Positions 4,511 through 12,703 of a DNA stretch of 64,000 bases are shown piece by piece. Position numbers and translations under genes: made by a program. Source of the DNA: an uncultured Alphaproteobacteria bacterium (GTDB lineage Bacteria > Pseudomonadota > Alphaproteobacteria > HIMB59 > GCA-002718135); the NCBI GenBank assembly GCA_902602515.1, contig CACKRG010000003.1, forward strand, positions 150,784-214,783. Direction: 5' to 3'. Position 1 is the first letter of the stretch. Each line of letters opens with the position of its first letter. A model generated the notes under the pieces. That model was not told the DNA's origin, ran no database searches, and saw only the letters and a list, made by a program, of their open reading frames with translations.

Positions 4511-6088
4511 ATGGAATCAATAATATCAATTAAAAATCTTGGTATTGATTTTAATAATCAAAATGAAGTTGTTAAAAATATCAACATAGAAATTGTTAAA
4601 GGTAAAACAACCGCAATCGTTGGTGAATCTGGTTCAGGTAAAACAGTTTCGGCATTGAGCATTTTGAAACTTCTTCCTAATAATGCGAATATAAAAAATG
4701 GTGAAATTATATTTAATAATCAAAATATTTTATCTCTAAGTGATAATCAAATAAGAAATATCAGAGGTAATAAGATTGCAACTATTTTTCAAGAGCCAAT
4801 GACAAGTTTAAATCCATTACATACAATAAATAGGCAAATTGAAGAAATTATATTAACGCATAACAAGACAGAAAAAATTAATGCAAAAGAAAAAGTAAAA
4901 AAATTATTAAATGAAGTAGGTCTTGAGGAAATTGCTAAAAGGCCTAAAGTTTATCCCTACGAACTATCAGGTGGACAAAGACAAAGAGCTATGATTGCTA
5001 TGAGCATAGCCAATAAGCCTGATTTATTAATAGCTGATGAACCTACGACTGCTCTTGATGTAACAATTCAAATGCAAATTTTAGATTTATTATCACAGCT
5101 TCAAAAAAAATTAGGTATGACATTACTTTTTATTAGTCATGATTTATCAGTAGTTAAAAAAATATCAGATTATGTCTATGTAATGAAAGAGGGTAAAATT
5201 ATTGAAAATGGGTCAACATCAGAAGTATTTAAAAATCCTACTCATATTTATACAAAAGAGTTAATAACTTCACAAAGTAATAAAAAAATAAAAGTAAAAA
5301 AATTAGAAAAGACAGTACTTAAAATTGAAAAACTTAATGTTTGGTATCCAATTAAAAAGGGATTACTGAAAAGGACTGTGGATTATGTAAAGGCTATAAA
5401 AAATGTCAGTTTTAATTTAAATATAGGTGAAAGTATTGGTGTTGTTGGTGAATCAGGATCAGGAAAGACATCCCTTATACTAGCGATATTAAGGTTAATT
5501 GAGAGTAGTGGGGATATTTATTTTAAAAATATCAATATAAATAAACTCAAAAGTAATCAAATTTTAAATTTAAGAAAAGAGATTCAAATAGTATTTCAAG
5601 ATCCATTTTCATCATTAAGCCCACGTATGAATGTTGAAGAAATTATTTGTGAAGGTTTAAGAGTGCATTATCCAAATATTTCTATAGAAAATAGAATAAC
5701 GAAATTAAAAAATGTCCTTAATAAGGTTGGGCTAAATTATTCTGAATGTATAGAAAAATACCCTCATGAGTTTTCTGGAGGTCAAAGACAAAGGATTGCA
5801 ATTGCAAGAGCTTTAATACTTGAACCAAAAATTCTAATTTTAGATGAACCAACATCAGCTTTAGATATTACTATTCAGAATCAAATAATAAATCTTTTAA
5901 ATAAATTACAAAGTGAGCTTTTGCTTAGTTATATTTTTATAAGTCATGATATGAAAGTTATTAGGTCAGTTGCTGACAAAATAATAGTTCTAAGAAAAGG
6001 TGTTATAATAGAAGAATCTTCAAGTGAAAATATTTTTAATAATCCACAAAGTGAATATACAAAAAATCTAATAAAAGCTGTGTTATAA
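4511..6088 (+). CDS. yejF: Peptide ABC transporter ATP-binding protein with two ABC domains (YejF-like)
   Basis: Two Walker A motifs (GESGSGKT twice) and two LSGGQRQR/FSGGQRQR signatures. Confidence 0.9.
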   Translation: MESIISIKNLGIDFNNQNEVVKNINIEIVKGKTTAIVGESGSGKTVSALSILKLLPNNANIKNGEIIFNNQNILSLSDNQIRNIRGNKIATIFQEPMTSLNPLHTINRQIEEIILTHNKTEKINAKEKVKKLLNEVGLEEIAKRPKVYPYELSGGQRQRAMIAMSIANKPDLLIADEPTTALDVTIQMQILDLLSQLQKKLGMTLLFISHDLSVVKKISDYVYVMKEGKIIENGSTSEVFKNPTHIYTKELITSQSNKKIKVKKLEKTVLKIEKLNVWYPIKKGLLKRTVDYVKAIKNVSFNLNIGESIGVVGESGSGKTSLILAILRLIESSGDIYFKNININKLKSNQILNLRKEIQIVFQDPFSSLSPRMNVEEIICEGLRVHYPNISIENRITKLKNVLNKVGLNYSECIEKYPHEFSGGQRQRIAIARALILEPKILILDEPTSALDITIQNQIINLLNKLQSELLLSYIFISHDMKVIRSVADKIIVLRKGVIIEESSSENIFNNPQSEYTKNLIKAVL

Positions 6089-6092
6089 ATAG

Positions 6093-8081
6093 ATGAATAC
6101 AAATATTAGTACAGAGCCTAAAAAAGATGAAGCTAATGAATTACTTAAATTATTTAATGAAAAAAAATTTGGTGAATTATTAAATAAGGCTGAGGGCTTA
6201 AGATTAATTTATCCTAACTCATTATTAATATTTAATATTCTAGGTGCTTCATATTTTGAAGTTGGCGATTACAAAAAATCTCTAGTTTTCTTTAATAATT
6301 TAATTCGAAATAAGCCAAATTATTTTGAAGCTTATTACAATATAGGAAATGTTTATACTAAAATTGGTAAATTAGATTTAGCACTTACATATTATATAAA
6401 ATCTACTAATTTAAAAAAAGATTTTTTTGAAGCATTCAACAACATTGGAAATATATATAAAAGAAAAAATCAAAAAAGCTCTGCTATAGTTAATTATATT
6501 AAAAGCCTTAAAATAAATCCTGATTTTAAAAGATCTTATCATAATTTGGCTGTAGTTTTACAAGATTATATCTTTAATGAGCCCATCCCTAATATCGAAA
6601 AATATTTAATTAGGATTCTTGAAAGTGAGACAATTGTAAGACCTATTGCGATAGCAAATTCAATAATTAGTTATTTACAACTAAATGAGGATTTTAAAAA
6701 ATTTTTTTATATGAAAGATGATAAATATAAAAAAATTCCAATTAATAAAAAAATAAAATTCTTATCAAATTACAAACTATTTACTAAATTATTACAACTT
6801 TGCCCTATACCGAATATAAAAATTGAAGAAAAATTAAGAGAAATAAGAAAGGAGATACTTTTAAAAGTATCTATAATAGAAAATAGAAATGATAATTTCG
6901 AATTAATTAATGCTATTTCAACTCAATGTTATTTAAATGAATATATTTATGAGATATCAGAAGAGGAAATTTCTGCTCTTAAAAATTTAGAAGAAGAAAT
7001 ATTTAAAAAAATAATAATAAATAATCATTCAGCTAATTTGGAAATATTATGTTTATCGTGTTTTAAATCTTTAAATGATTTAGATTGGATAAAGAATATA
7101 AAAGAAATTAAAGTCTTAAATCAAGTATATAAATATCATTATCAAGAAAAACTTGAAGAAGAAGAAATTTCTAAAACAATTAAATCAATTGCAATGATTA
7201 AAGATAACATCTCAATTAAAGTGAAAAGTCAATATGAAGAGAATCCATATCCAAGATGGAATAATATAGGACTAAGTTTTGCCCCAAAAAGTCTAAAAAA
7301 TGTAATTAAAGATATCAATTTAAATATTGCTGAAAATAGTATTTCCGAATTGTCTAAACCTGAAATATTGATTGCTGGTTGCGGAACAGGACAACATGCA
7401 ATAACATCTGCATCGAAGTATCTAAATTGTAATATTACTGCCATTGACCTTAGTAAAAGGAGTTTGTCTTATGCAATTAGAAAAGCAAAACATTTTAAAT
7501 ACAATAATATTAAATTCCTGGAAGGAGATATTTTAGATTTAAAAAGATTAAATAAAAAATTTAATATCATTGAATGCGTAGGAGTATTACATCATATGGA
7601 TGATCCGTATAATGGGTGGAAGTGTCTTAAAGATTGTCTTAGAGATGATGGATTAATGTATATTGGCTTGTATAGTGAATTAGCAAGACAAAATATTAAA
7701 TTGATACGAAATGAAATTAAAAAAATGGATATATACCCAGATAAAAAAAATATTATTAATTTTAGAAACAAAATTATAAAATCAAATGAAAAAAAATATC
7801 ACGACTTAAAAAATAGTACAGATTTTTATTCTTTAAGTGCTTTAAGAGATTTAATATTTCATTTTCAAGAACATACTTTTACTTTAGACAAAATAGAGCA
7901 AATACTAAAAAAATTAAATATGAAATTTATAGGTTTTGAAGATACGTATGTTCTAGAAAAATTTAAATCTTTTAAAAAAAGTGAAAATCAGATTTATAAT
8001 CTAGAAGATTGGAAAAGGTTTGAAAATAAAAATCCTAGAATTTTTGCAGGGATGTATCAATTTTGGTGTCAGAAGATTTAA
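6093..8081 (+). CDS. TPR-repeat protein with C-terminal class I SAM-dependent methyltransferase domain
   Basis: N-terminal TPR units (NYFEAYYNIGNVYTKIGKLDLALTYYIKSTNLKKDFFEAFNNIGNIYKR); QYEENPYPRW; EILIAGCGTGQHAI SAM-binding motif. Confidence 0.85.
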   Translation: MNTNISTEPKKDEANELLKLFNEKKFGELLNKAEGLRLIYPNSLLIFNILGASYFEVGDYKKSLVFFNNLIRNKPNYFEAYYNIGNVYTKIGKLDLALTYYIKSTNLKKDFFEAFNNIGNIYKRKNQKSSAIVNYIKSLKINPDFKRSYHNLAVVLQDYIFNEPIPNIEKYLIRILESETIVRPIAIANSIISYLQLNEDFKKFFYMKDDKYKKIPINKKIKFLSNYKLFTKLLQLCPIPNIKIEEKLREIRKEILLKVSIIENRNDNFELINAISTQCYLNEYIYEISEEEISALKNLEEEIFKKIIINNHSANLEILCLSCFKSLNDLDWIKNIKEIKVLNQVYKYHYQEKLEEEEISKTIKSIAMIKDNISIKVKSQYEENPYPRWNNIGLSFAPKSLKNVIKDINLNIAENSISELSKPEILIAGCGTGQHAITSASKYLNCNITAIDLSKRSLSYAIRKAKHFKYNNIKFLEGDILDLKRLNKKFNIIECVGVLHHMDDPYNGWKCLKDCLRDDGLMYIGLYSELARQNIKLIRNEIKKMDIYPDKKNIINFRNKIIKSNEKKYHDLKNSTDFYSLSALRDLIFHFQEHTFTLDKIEQILKKLNMKFIGFEDTYVLEKFKSFKKSENQIYNLEDWKRFENKNPRIFAGMYQFWCQKI

Positions 8082-8105: not shown

Positions 8106-9152
8106 TTAATCTAAAATAAATTCATTAAATTTATTAGCTATAGCTTTACCTATAATCGCAGAGGCTTTGGGTGAAGTATGTATACCATCATAAAAATCAT
8201 TATCATTTATTTTTAAATTTTCATTCGATAAGTCAATACATAAAATTTTTTCATTTTTACAAAAATTATTTGTAAAATTATTTATAATAGAAAGATAATC
8301 CTTTAACCAATGTTCGTTAGATATAACTTGAGTTACTAAAATTAGTTTTGATTTATATTTATTTGCATTATTATTGATGTTTATTAAATTATTATAATAA
8401 TAATTTTCAAAGATCTTAATTGTTTTATTATTTAACATTAAGTTTTCTGGTGATTTGACTATGAAAGGTTTAAATTTTTTAGGCTTTTGATTATAATTAA
8501 ATTTAAATTTTCTAGAAATTAAATTACCTTTAATGACTAAATAAAAAGTATGTAGAGCACTATTATTTTTTACATATTGCACTGCTCTATCGGTCAAATT
8601 TATATTCATAAGTGTATCCCTATTAGATGAGTTTAAATTTCTACCTTCATCAGGAATTTCATTTTTATTTAAATTTTCTAATAAAAATAACGCATCATTT
8701 ATCCCAACATAAAGAATAATATATTTTGGAGATAATGTTTCAAATTTATCAAACCACAAACTAAACATTGATTTGTGTCCATAAGATGTTTGACCTCCAA
8801 TACCAGCATTTAAAACTTTTAAATTTGAATTTAAATTTTTTTCAAAAATTTTAGTCCAAATTTTGTTATCATCTACCTCTCTTTCCTCAGTTGTACTTCC
8901 TCCCAGTATTAATATTTCAATATCATTTAGTTCATATTCGTTTGCTCTGAATCCATTTTTATCCCTAGAATAAATGCCAATTTCTTCAGCATCATATGGA
9001 AAACTTTCAATAATGTTTGTCTGTTTTTTAGGAATAAGTAAACTTCCATAATTTGATTTTTTAAACCAACTCCCAAATATTATTTCAATAAAAAATAATC
9101 CTAAGATAAATATAAAAAAATTTATGATTAGTATTTTTAAAACATTATTCAT
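8106..9152 (-). CDS. SGNH/GDSL-family hydrolase with N-terminal TM anchor
   Basis: ILGGSTTEERE, NAGIGGQTSYGH, YVGINDALF, YDGIHTSPKA blocks resemble SGNH hydrolase motifs. Confidence 0.7.
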   Translation of the reverse strand: MNNVLKILIINFFIFILGLFFIEIIFGSWFKKSNYGSLLIPKKQTNIIESFPYDAEEIGIYSRDKNGFRANEYELNDIEILILGGSTTEEREVDDNKIWTKIFEKNLNSNLKVLNAGIGGQTSYGHKSMFSLWFDKFETLSPKYIILYVGINDALFLLENLNKNEIPDEGRNLNSSNRDTLMNINLTDRAVQYVKNNSALHTFYLVIKGNLISRKFKFNYNQKPKKFKPFIVKSPENLMLNNKTIKIFENYYYNNLININNNANKYKSKLILVTQVISNEHWLKDYLSIINNFTNNFCKNEKILCIDLSNENLKINDNDFYDGIHTSPKASAIIGKAIANKFNEFILD

Positions 9153-9262: not shown

Positions 9263-9350
9263 TGGAGAGAAAGGAATGCTAACCCTTTATAGCATTACTT
9301 CTACACAGGCTTTCTAAGAGAACTTATTAGTCAGCTCTTAAATATTTCCC
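9263..9350 (-). pseudogene. Degenerate near-full-length tRNA-Ser copy (ghost A)
   Basis: On the minus strand aligns to tRNA-Ser(10806-10895): GGGAAATATTTAAGAGCTGACTAATAAGTTCTCTTAGAAAGCCTGTGTAGAAG...AAGGGTTAGCATTCCTTTCTCTCCACA; anticodon stem no longer pairs. Confidence 0.65.
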
Positions 9351-9579
9351 TAAAAATAATATCAATTATTCCTTTCTAATTATAAGTTTTATCAATCATG
9401 GTATATAGAAAAGTTTATTTTGAATTTATTGCAAGTTAAAGGATTATTTTTTGATTATTAGAGTTTATTTGTATATGATGATTTATTAATAATATTTTTA
9501 AAATAATATTGGTTATTAAATTCTAAATGATTTAAATTATACTATCCTAATTATATAAGATATGTTTTGTAAATAAAAT

Positions 9580-10593
9580 ATGAAAAACACCAAAAAAGTT
9601 GTTAAATTTTCTAAAGACTATAGTGATATTTTAAAAATAAAGAATTCCTTTTATGATGAAAATTTTCTACATCTCAACAATAGAAAAAAAATATATCAGG
9701 AATATGTAAATCAACCAAAAAGAAAATCATGTAAGAATTGTAATAACGATGCTTCTAAAAGTTTTATTGAAATTCATAAAGTAAAGTATTTTTTTTGCGA
9801 AAAATGTGGTCATGTTAATGGCGTCAATGAAGATACAAAAGATTTTACAGATAAATTATATTTTGGAAAAAAAGGGAAGAACTACTCTAAAGTGTATTTG
9901 AATGATTACGTTTCTAGAGTAAAAAAAATTTATTCGCCCAAAGTTGATTTTTTAATGCAGGTTGTTAACAAACAACCAAAAGTTTTAGATGTGGGTTGTG
10001 GAGCTGGTCATTTTGTATATGCTTGTGAGATAAATAAAATTGAAGCAAAGGGAATAGAGCCAAGTGAAGAATTGGTTAACTTAGGTAAAAATTTTATAAA
10101 AAAAAATAATATTTCAAAGATTTTAATGGAAGATGCTTACTCTGAAATTACCAATACTGATTCTAATGTTATTTCTTTAATTGGTGTATTAGAACATGTT
10201 AGATACCCAAGAAAAATATTAGAGAGCTATTTGAAATCTAAAGCAGAATATCTATATATATTAGTTCCTATATTCTCTTTGTCAAATTTTATAGAAAAAA
10301 ACTTTTTAAATATCTTTCCAAGACATTCATCTGGTGGTCACACTCATTTTTATACTGAAGAATCACTAAACTACATAGCTAAAGAATTTAATCTTAAAAT
10401 TGTGGGAGAATGGTGGTTTGGTCAAGATTTTGCTGACTTATATAGATCACTATTAATTAATCATAAAAATCTTAATCCTACCTATACAAAAATGTTAAAT
10501 AAATATCTATTTAATGAAATAGCAGATTTACAAAATGTACTTGATAAAAAGAAAATTTGTTCTGAAGTACATATGATTTTTTCAAAAAAATAA
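9580..10593 (+). CDS. Class I SAM-dependent methyltransferase with N-terminal zinc-ribbon-like CxxC pair
   Basis: CKNC...CEKC; PKVLDVGCGAGHFVYACE; LIGVLEHV; SGGHTHFYTEESL. Confidence 0.8.
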   Translation: MKNTKKVVKFSKDYSDILKIKNSFYDENFLHLNNRKKIYQEYVNQPKRKSCKNCNNDASKSFIEIHKVKYFFCEKCGHVNGVNEDTKDFTDKLYFGKKGKNYSKVYLNDYVSRVKKIYSPKVDFLMQVVNKQPKVLDVGCGAGHFVYACEINKIEAKGIEPSEELVNLGKNFIKKNNISKILMEDAYSEITNTDSNVISLIGVLEHVRYPRKILESYLKSKAEYLYILVPIFSLSNFIEKNFLNIFPRHSSGGHTHFYTEESLNYIAKEFNLKIVGEWWFGQDFADLYRSLLINHKNLNPTYTKMLNKYLFNEIADLQNVLDKKKICSEVHMIFSKK

Positions 10594-10617
10594 TTTAGGA
10601 AAAGTTTCAAAATTTCA

Positions 10618-10700
10618 TGGTATATGAATTCTAACCCTTGGTAGTATTACTATTACACACGCTTTCCAAGCGTGCTGAATAGAACAAACTCAAGGAAACA
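10618..10700 (-). pseudogene. Degenerate tRNA-Ser copy (ghost B) with intact anticodon arm
   Basis: 10633-10678 matches 10827-10872 of tRNA-Ser at 43 of 46 positions by hand alignment; T-stem and acceptor degraded. Confidence 0.85.
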
Positions 10701-10805
10701 TGAAGATATTTATATGATTTTTTTTAATTATTATAAGAGTAAGTGTGATCTATGTGTGATCTTTTGAGTTAATTAAAAATAATTTAATATTTTTTATGCA
10801 AAATA

Positions 10806-10895
10806 TGGCGGAGAGAGAGGGATTCGAACCCTCGGTAGTATTGCTACTACACACGCTTTCCAAGCGTGCTGATTAAACCGCTCTCACATCTCTCC
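10806..10895 (-). tRNA. tRNA-Ser, anticodon GGA, CCA encoded
   Basis: GGAGAGATGTGAGAGCGGTTTAATCAGCACGCTTGGAAAGCGTGTGTAGTAGCAATACTACCGAGGGTTCGAATCCCTCTCTCTCCGCCA; acceptor 7 bp, anticodon CACGC-TTGGAAA-GCGTG, long variable arm, T arm GAGGG-TTCGAAT-CCCTC. Confidence 0.97.
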
Positions 10896-10900
10896 ATGAT

Positions 10901-12703
10901 TTAATTATCTTTCATTTTTAAAGCATTTAAAAAAGTGTTTTGGGGGATATCAACTTTTCCGAACTGTCTCATTCTTTTTTTTCCTTTTTTTTGCTTATCG
11001 AGAAGTTTGTTTTTTCTTGTTACATCTCCACCATAAAGTTTTTGCGTTACATCCTTTCTAAATGAGGCAACTGTTTCTCTAGCAATTATCTTACCTCCAA
11101 TCGCTGCTTGAATTGCAACTTTAAATTGCTGTCTTGGAATTAAATCTTTAAGCCTTTCACAAAGGGCTCTACCTCTTTGTTCTGATCTATCTTTGTGAAC
11201 AATGAGTGAAAGGGCATCTACATGATCTCCATTAATAAGTATTCCAACTTTTACTAGATTATTTACCTCATATCCTGTTATCTCATAATCAAAACTTGCA
11301 TAACCTTTTGTGATTGATTTTAATCGATCATAAAAATCAAATACTACTTCATTTAAAGGAAGTTTATATTCAACTAGTGGTCTGTTACCAGCATAACTCA
11401 TATTTAATTGAATCCCCCTTTTAGAGGTACACAATTCTAAAACTGAGCCAAGAAACTCTTCTGGTACGATTATGGTTGCTTTAATCCAAGGTTCAGAAAT
11501 ATTCTCTACTTTTACTGGATCAGGCATATCAGTTGGATTATGAAGATCAATAATCAAACCATCTTTCATTAATATTTTATAAACAACAGATGGTGCTGTT
11601 GTTACTAATTCTAAATTAAATTCTCTTTCAAAACGATCTCTTATTATTTCTAAATGTAACAAACCCAAAAAACCACATCTAAAACCATATCCTAATGCAG
11701 GACTAACTTCGGGTTCATAAGAAAAACTAGAATCATTTAAAGCTAATTTAGCCATACTATCCCTCATGTGCTCATAATCATCTGAGTCAACAGGAAACAT
11801 TCCACAAAAAACAACTGGTTGTGATGGCTTAAAGCCTGGAAAAACTTCGTCAGTAGGTAATTTATCATCTGTAATGGTGTCGCCTACTTTACAATCAGAA
11901 ACACTTTTAATTCCCGAGTTAATAAAACCTATTTCTCCAGGGCCTAAAGAATTAACTTCTGTTGCTTTGGGAGAAAATACTCCTACTCGATCGATAGTAT
12001 ACGTAGCTCCGGTAGCCATAAATCTAATTTTAGCACCTTTTTTTAATTGTCCATTTACAACCCTAACCAATACAACAACCCCAAGATAACTGTCATACCA
12101 ACTGTCAACTAACATACATTTTAATTCTTTATTTTTTTGACCAGAAGGTGAAGGTAATAATTTTACAATTTTATTTAATAAATCTTCTATACCATCACCT
12201 GTTTTTGCAGAGACTAGTGAAGCATTTTCTGTTTCAATACCCAAAACATCTTCAATTTGTGATTTAATTTTATCTGGTTCAGAAGATGGCAGATCAATTT
12301 TATTTAAAACAGGTAATATTTCATGATCATTATTAATTGCTTGATAAGCATTTGCCAATGTTTGAGCTTCTACACCCTGTGTGGAATCAACAATTAGCAA
12401 AGATCCTTCACATGCGGCTAAAGATCTTGAAACTTCATATGAGAAATCAACATGTCCTGGAGTATCCATTATATTTAAGATATAGGTTTTTCCATCTTCT
12501 GATTTATAGGAAAGCCTTACAGTTTGTGCTTTAATTGTTATACCTCTCTCTCTTTCTAATTCCATTGAATCTAAAACTTGTTCTTTCATTTCTCTATCAG
12601 ATAGACCTCCACAGAATTGTATAAGCCTATCGGCTAATGTTGATTTACCATGATCTATATGAGCAACAATTGAAAAATTTCGAATAGAACTAAGTTCTGT
12701 CAT
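10901..12703 (-). CDS. lepA: Elongation factor 4 (LepA)
   Basis: [50 protein letters not shown]-terminal [17 protein letters not shown]. Confidence 0.98.

Follow-up and report, generated by a model that had tools for sequence, protein, structure and literature searches.

The window, the whole 64,000-nucleotide stretch of DNA analysed here, belongs to a genome of 1.43 Mb in 34 contigs and carries, as the preliminary description had stated, a single intact tRNA-Ser(GGA) at 10806-10895 (-), directly beside lepA (Table 1); both ARAGORN and Rfam detected it. Two degenerate copies of this tRNA, here called ghosts A and B, lay on the same strand with alignment scores of 45 (ghost B) and 40 (ghost A). 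Nothing else in the window scored above about 15, and the top score in a control of 1000 first-order Markov sequences of 2.2 kb each was 16. The two same-orientation decayed copies reported earlier are thus real and far above chance (0/1000 random controls). Scored as tRNAs, both ghosts fell under detection by ARAGORN and Rfam. An Rfam match to psbl-rps4 on the strand opposite the tRNA was rejected, being under the gathering score and merely mirroring the tRNA. Ghost B had been placed at 10618-10700, which exceeds its alignable part; its match was best over about tRNA positions 21-74 (91% by blastn), and convincing tRNA similarity was absent 5' of about position 21-24. Ghost B is a displaced 3' part of the tRNA whose own 3' end is gone. 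Ghost A aligned where it had been expected (about 9263-9350) and appears to be the oldest scar, a decayed, near full-length tRNA-Ser copy of putative insertion origin.

Table 1. Features of the tRNA-Ser(GGA) locus in the window, from the lepA side onwards.
Feature	Position	Strand	Description
lepA	10901..12703	-	Stable left flank; Pfam LepA_C
Intact tRNA-Ser(GGA)	10806..10895	-	ARAGORN and Rfam RF00005, 53.1 bits
Left-end spacer, tRNA-proximal unit	10762..10805	-	44 bp, CCA to arms
Tandem 11-bp arm pair GATCACACATA-GATCACACTTA	10740..10761	-	~0.15 such sites expected per 64 kb per strand
Right-end spacer, tRNA-proximal unit	10684..10739	-	56 bp, to position-19 equivalent of ghost B
Ghost B	10628..10692	-	tRNA positions 10-74, 55/65 identical, ungapped
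SAM-dependent methyltransferase, 337 aa	9580..10593	+	Pfam Methyltransf_23, E=1.5e-15
Ghost A	9264..9349	-	tRNA positions 1-86, 63/86 identical, ungapped
GDSL/SGNH hydrolase gene	8106..9152	-	Beyond ghost A, variable flank; Pfam
TPR-methyltransferase gene	6093..8081	+	Hotspot right flank in part of the genus
Dipeptide/oligopeptide-type ABC ATPase gene	4511..6088	+	Stable right flank; Pfam

The methyltransferase gene, described earlier as the sole CDS between the ghosts, is indeed the only sizeable ORF there. Its best relatives in 110 family genomes were 41% and 33% identical and located on other contigs, and it was not found in the tRNA-Ser arrays of those genomes. A homologue of the GDSL/SGNH hydrolase gene (76% identical DNA) lay past the array of one relative (G033), not bracketed by ghosts. 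In several relatives the TPR-methyltransferase gene ended close to the last tRNA copy, with a few to about 15 bp separating its stop codon from that copy.

We used lepA to locate the tRNA-Ser locus in relatives and read downstream of it in 28 of them, of which 21 share the window's genus and 7 belong to a sister family (f2), adding 20 further family loci that were chosen for detected ghosts, so that the ghost frequency in that set is biased upward. The assemblies, single-cell or similar, are incomplete, and their contigs often break at tRNA repeats. One relative (G020) had an empty site consisting of lepA, the tRNA, 5 bp and the ABC ATPase gene, with no ghost. In other relatives the tRNA was separated from one or more copies of itself by cargo that differed among genomes and measured 0.4–13 kb; the intact tRNA formed the near end of this variable cargo and a displaced, direct-orientation tRNA fragment the far end. 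These ghosts usually began at tRNA position 19-23 and ended at 90, many were 90-100% identical to the tRNA, and the same starting positions recurred in units with unrelated cargo. In multi-ghost arrays the nearer ghost was usually better kept (24 pairs versus 9, the pairs not being independent), a pattern consistent with insertion having occurred at the intact tRNA more than once. The preliminary description had read the locus as a repeatedly used integration hotspot. With an empty site, variable cargo, ghosts in many relatives and signs of sequential accretion, the lepA–tRNA-Ser–dpp region is indeed one in HIMB59/AEGEAN-169-like Alphaproteobacteria, with the intact tRNA-Ser(GGA) as the attachment site, regenerated on the lepA side. 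Ghosts were absent at all 7 f2 tRNA-Ser loci read, and among the matches listed in an order-wide comparison with an array junction, those in f2 genomes covered the tRNA itself and nothing more; the cassette system is therefore seen in one family only. A separate insert of ~5.4 kb with five genes lay between lepA and tRNA-Ser, with no detectable ghost, in G022, G019, G007, G010 and G021 (loci L046, L052, L054, L055 and L037).

Alignment of the flanks of all tRNA copies delimited the ends of the units. At the left end, a spacer of ~45 bp 3' of CCA was followed by a tandem 11-bp repeat of the form N5CACATA-N5CACTTA; at the right end, a like tandem repeat was followed by ~55 bp and then the ghost, placing the arms ~78 bp before it. 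Arms stood near +45 and near -78 in most units. Of 48 intervals scored, 29 had a recognisable arm pair at each end; the window's interval is one of these, its two pairs being the same site. Arms were unrecognisable in 19/48. The N5 portion differed among units yet agreed inside each, with 7.73/10 matches versus 4.9 when shuffled and 0/50,000 as high (22 units, window unit excluded, repeated cassettes collapsed, registers set by eye). The exact pattern GGCRCACATAYGGCRCACTT had 14 occurrences in the 110 family genomes, all at tRNA-Ser arrays, and a reversed control of the pattern gave 0 matches in the same genomes. Judged by these alignments, the units have a lambda-type (heterobivalent) attP layout, in which a tRNA core is accompanied by arm repeats on both sides at near-fixed distance.

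Two types of unit could be distinguished by the part of the tRNA that they bring. The common type A carries tRNA positions 19-90 and leaves 3' ghosts. In type B, 5' ghosts (tRNA positions 1 to about 53-73) stand on the lepA side and the full tRNA is terminal, often with arms 83-85 bp upstream of it. The stretch of tRNA common to both types, about 19-53, contains the anticodon arm. An earlier suggestion that the element carried a whole tRNA fits type B, which brings one, but not type A. The alternative suggestion, that a tandem tRNA duplication came first, is superfluous for ghost B and may apply to ghost A. Type B units, in which arms follow the 5' ghosts, were seen at L338 (G076), L051 (G033), L329 (G061) and L053 (G023), and the one in G033 also appears cargo-free.

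The feature that proved key in the window is one absent from the preliminary description, the tandem GATCACACATAGATCACACTTA at 10740-10761 (-). Between CCA and the point in ghost B that corresponds to tRNA position 19 lie 122 bp (10805 down to 10684), made up of 44 + 22 + 56, and the CCA-to-arm spacing in relatives' units was likewise mostly 44-47 bp. The right-end spacer was homologous to class II right ends in relatives; together with ghost B it matched G033 at 76% over 104 bp. The tRNA-proximal unit (10684-10805) consists of two ends with one common arm pair and no cargo, and the cargo may have been lost via deletion between two direct arm repeats. Within the window, no arms were found after ghost B or before ghost A, nor around the methyltransferase gene or ghost A. 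Ghost A, which matches tRNA positions 1-86, also reaches past position 19, where ghosts at this locus usually begin. Because it has no flanking arms, the role of the methyltransferase as remaining cargo, as previously proposed, is one that we infer: it is tied to the cassette system only via its position and its absence from relatives' arrays, and was probably the former cargo of such a unit.

Cargo sampled in relatives included, by Pfam, an ammonium transporter, a zinc dehydrogenase, a small multidrug-resistance-type transporter and a polysaccharide lyase, as well as most of a 12-kb operon encoding histidinol dehydrogenase, SnoaL and cupin proteins, a LacI regulator and ABC transporter parts; many cargo proteins had no Pfam family. 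Among the cargo proteins scanned with Pfam, which are part of all cargo, there were no conjugation or mobility genes. Whole units were 94-99% identical between genomes whose lepA was 79-84% identical, and in the best cases identity spanned the full unit. G001 and G130 (lepA 79.5%) share a 12.1-kb unit that is 98.9% identical from end to end, and a 253-aa unit was 94.3% identical over its length (lepA 78.6%). Further examples were a unit with 100-, 90- and 138-aa ORFs (96.6% over 1.4 kb; lepA 79.9%) and a 354-aa unit (97.9% over 1.2 kb; lepA 83.8%). The same cassettes recurred in differing neighbourhoods or array positions. Whole units have thus moved recently between genera, as precise units. 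The 12.1-kb unit (L059, L325, L327) was present in three genomes of two genera at 98.9-99.8% identity. The zinc dehydrogenase cassette (353-354 aa) occupied differing array positions in seven genomes, with 97-99% identical protein (L330:5252-6316 and six other arrays).

The preliminary description had proposed a search for tyrosine recombinases in islands at this tRNA; no PF00589 protein was present in or near any tRNA-Ser(GGA) array examined. A helper integrase for tRNA-Ser(GGA) was likewise not found in the 110 family genomes, and integrase-bearing members could have been missed, given incomplete genomes and contig breaks at repeats. Viral contigs contained no match to the 55-bp tRNA core or to the unit end sequences. 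Further viral matches were rejected: 120 contigs matched the 26-bp tRNA 3' end, the best being mostly whole tRNA-Ser genes on higher-GC contigs, and the arm pattern gave one chance match within a high-GC phage gene. Phages and plasmids matched an array junction only in part, around the tRNA core.

Phage-type integrases of the family genomes adjoin other tRNA genes or ghosts of them (Gly-GCC, Leu-CAA, Arg-ACG, Ser-GCT, Gln, Phe, Met and Val). A tandem 11-bp repeat stood just before the integrase gene in 10/11 loci, with nominal random p up to 0.038 each, the value at the eleventh being 0.13. In the G003 element at tRNA-Gly, GGTCACAGATAGGTCACACTT lay ~45 bp past CCA. These integrase-bearing elements at other tRNA genes share the layout of the tRNA-Ser cassettes. 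The window's own genome contains a tRNA-Gly(GCC) with two 3' ghosts ~14 kb away (L161:9926-11637 and L162:4344-4418; G000:C2), where one ghost adjoins an integrase gene with tandem arms, and a 108-aa unit lacking an integrase lies between the two ghosts. The same genome has a conserved single tyrosine recombinase of 352 aa, Cre-like by sequence (L172:8692-9750; G000:C10), which adjoins cobB in five genomes compared. No PF00589 match of XerC/XerD strength was found in the window's family, and the sister family has two such genes; the Cre-like recombinase is possibly a replacement of XerC/XerD.

Small non-autonomous cassettes probably attach at the tRNA-Ser(GGA) beside lepA, mobilised by a putative trans-acting helper integrase. 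The number of genes per cassette ranges from one to about a dozen, and the two ends that enclose them jointly form a lambda-type attP, with a copy of tRNA positions 19-90 and a tandem 11-bp arm pair on each side. The helper would bind the arms in trans and cross over inside the tRNA, probably at the anticodon arm. Integration would restore an intact tRNA on the lepA side and leave the displaced 3' part at the far end as a ghost; later arrivals would reuse the intact tRNA, such that units accrete beside it while the ghosts of earlier ones decay. The last unit in the window is cargo-free and ends in ghost B, with the methyltransferase and ghost A as likely remains of older insertions. Comparison of the locus across relatives, as proposed in the preliminary description, found variable cargo and an empty site, but the units are more than eroded islands: they have conserved attP-like ends, none of the arrays examined contains an integrase, and they still move between genera. 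A tentative extension, to which we give somewhat less than even weight, is an integron-like, tRNA-based system of minimal cassettes passed among genera of streamlined ocean bacteria, in which the arm code picks the helper integrase, supplied in trans by phages or satellites, and a second class enters from the 5' side with a whole tRNA.

The units might instead be classical CIMEs that have lost their own integrase and are now shuffled between genomes by homologous recombination via tRNA repeats and shared ends, with no integrase active today. Every array does lack an integrase, the 72-bp near-identical repeats and shared ends could support such recombination, some arms are decayed, and the same mechanism was preferred in a study of phosphate islands from this order (PMC10734472). 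However, arm spacing and the end-to-end match are kept over many unrelated units, full-unit identity occurs in genomes whose lepA is only 79% identical, and single-gene units with intact ends leave scant room for a lost integrase. We consider this origin unlikely. Far less probable is an ancient tandem duplication of tRNA-Ser followed by decay, with genes inserted afterwards for unrelated reasons. It would account for ghost A, which is nearly full length (63/86) and unlike a typical 3' att fragment, but it is already contradicted for ghost B, and it sits badly with the single tRNA at the empty site, with ghosts that form the ends of variable cargo and with conserved arms before and after ghosts. 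Duplication had earlier been considered the better account if all close relatives shared the methyltransferase and both ghosts and none carried an integrase here; the lack of an integrase was observed, but relatives' arrays are without the methyltransferase.

The core Cre-like recombinase could also drive the cassettes as a resident enzyme, in integron fashion. It is conserved family-wide in one neighbourhood, the family has none of the XerC/XerD-strength matches of the sister family, and it would account for units without integrase and without any helper. Yet its closest solved structures are those of Cre (weak matches), which has no arm-binding domain, and Pfam gives a catalytic domain only. 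Cassette-like arms precede phage-type integrases instead, and replacing XerC/XerD would be a sufficient role. We therefore set this candidate aside as the least likely of all. Mobilisation by a helper integrase acting in trans is the reading that we prefer.

The locus bears on how streamlined, mostly uncultured ocean bacteria swap single adaptive genes. For the phosphate islands of HIMB59, a 2023 study described boundaries without tRNA and favoured homologous recombination (PMC10734472). In apparently the same order, the tRNA-Ser locus points to site-specific, tRNA-anchored exchange of units down to one gene; what is exchanged includes genes for an ammonium transporter and a zinc dehydrogenase as well as a 12-kb operon for uptake and catabolism. 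A direct handle is provided by the arm sequences for an integrase search, trans-mobilisation tests and metagenome scans for free cassettes.

tRNA-targeted islands, CIMEs and tandem accretion are already established (PMC5704250; PMC3146451; PMC4383910). CIMEs of ICESt1-related elements in Streptococcus (PMC5704250) are, like the units here, att-flanked, without integration genes and tandem-stacked at one site, the stacking there occurring via site-specific recombination. The units here share the CIME traits of att sites at both ends (core and arm pairs in 29/48 intervals) and missing integration genes. CIMEs are regarded as ICEs or IMEs that have decayed, whereas the present units are often single-gene with intact paired arms, the integrase is absent from every unit at the tRNA-Ser site, and single units recur across arrays of different genera. 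In Dehalococcoides, ssrA islands (PMC3146451) are likewise arranged in tandem behind a tRNA-like gene with direct repeats of its 3' end. There, 15 islands lack an integration module and 16 have one, and a serine recombinase and a 20-bp repeat are involved; at the tRNA-Ser site no island carries an enzyme, the repeat is ~72 bp and the layout is of tyrosine-integrase type. Islands at tRNA genes catalogued by Islander also split and regenerate their target, a displaced fragment marking the far end (PMC4383910); our locus differs in having islands without integrase and a second class entering from the 5' side. Streamlined plankton also harbour tycheposons, known from Prochlorococcus and marine Methylophilaceae (PMC10872708), which likewise bring cargo to tRNA genes, nutrient genes included. 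They are described as having a tyrosine recombinase and spanning 4-200 kb, while the units here start at ~0.4 kb and lack a recombinase. Integron gene cassettes work in a comparable way, in that small units lacking a recombinase of their own form arrays with the newest beside a fixed site, but here a double-stranded lambda-type attP with a tRNA core would take the place of attC, and no tyrosine recombinase (PF00589) that could be an IntI lay near any array. What is distinct at the tRNA-Ser locus is the combination of small size, consistent integrase absence at this site, matched arm variants and independent movement of single units between genera.
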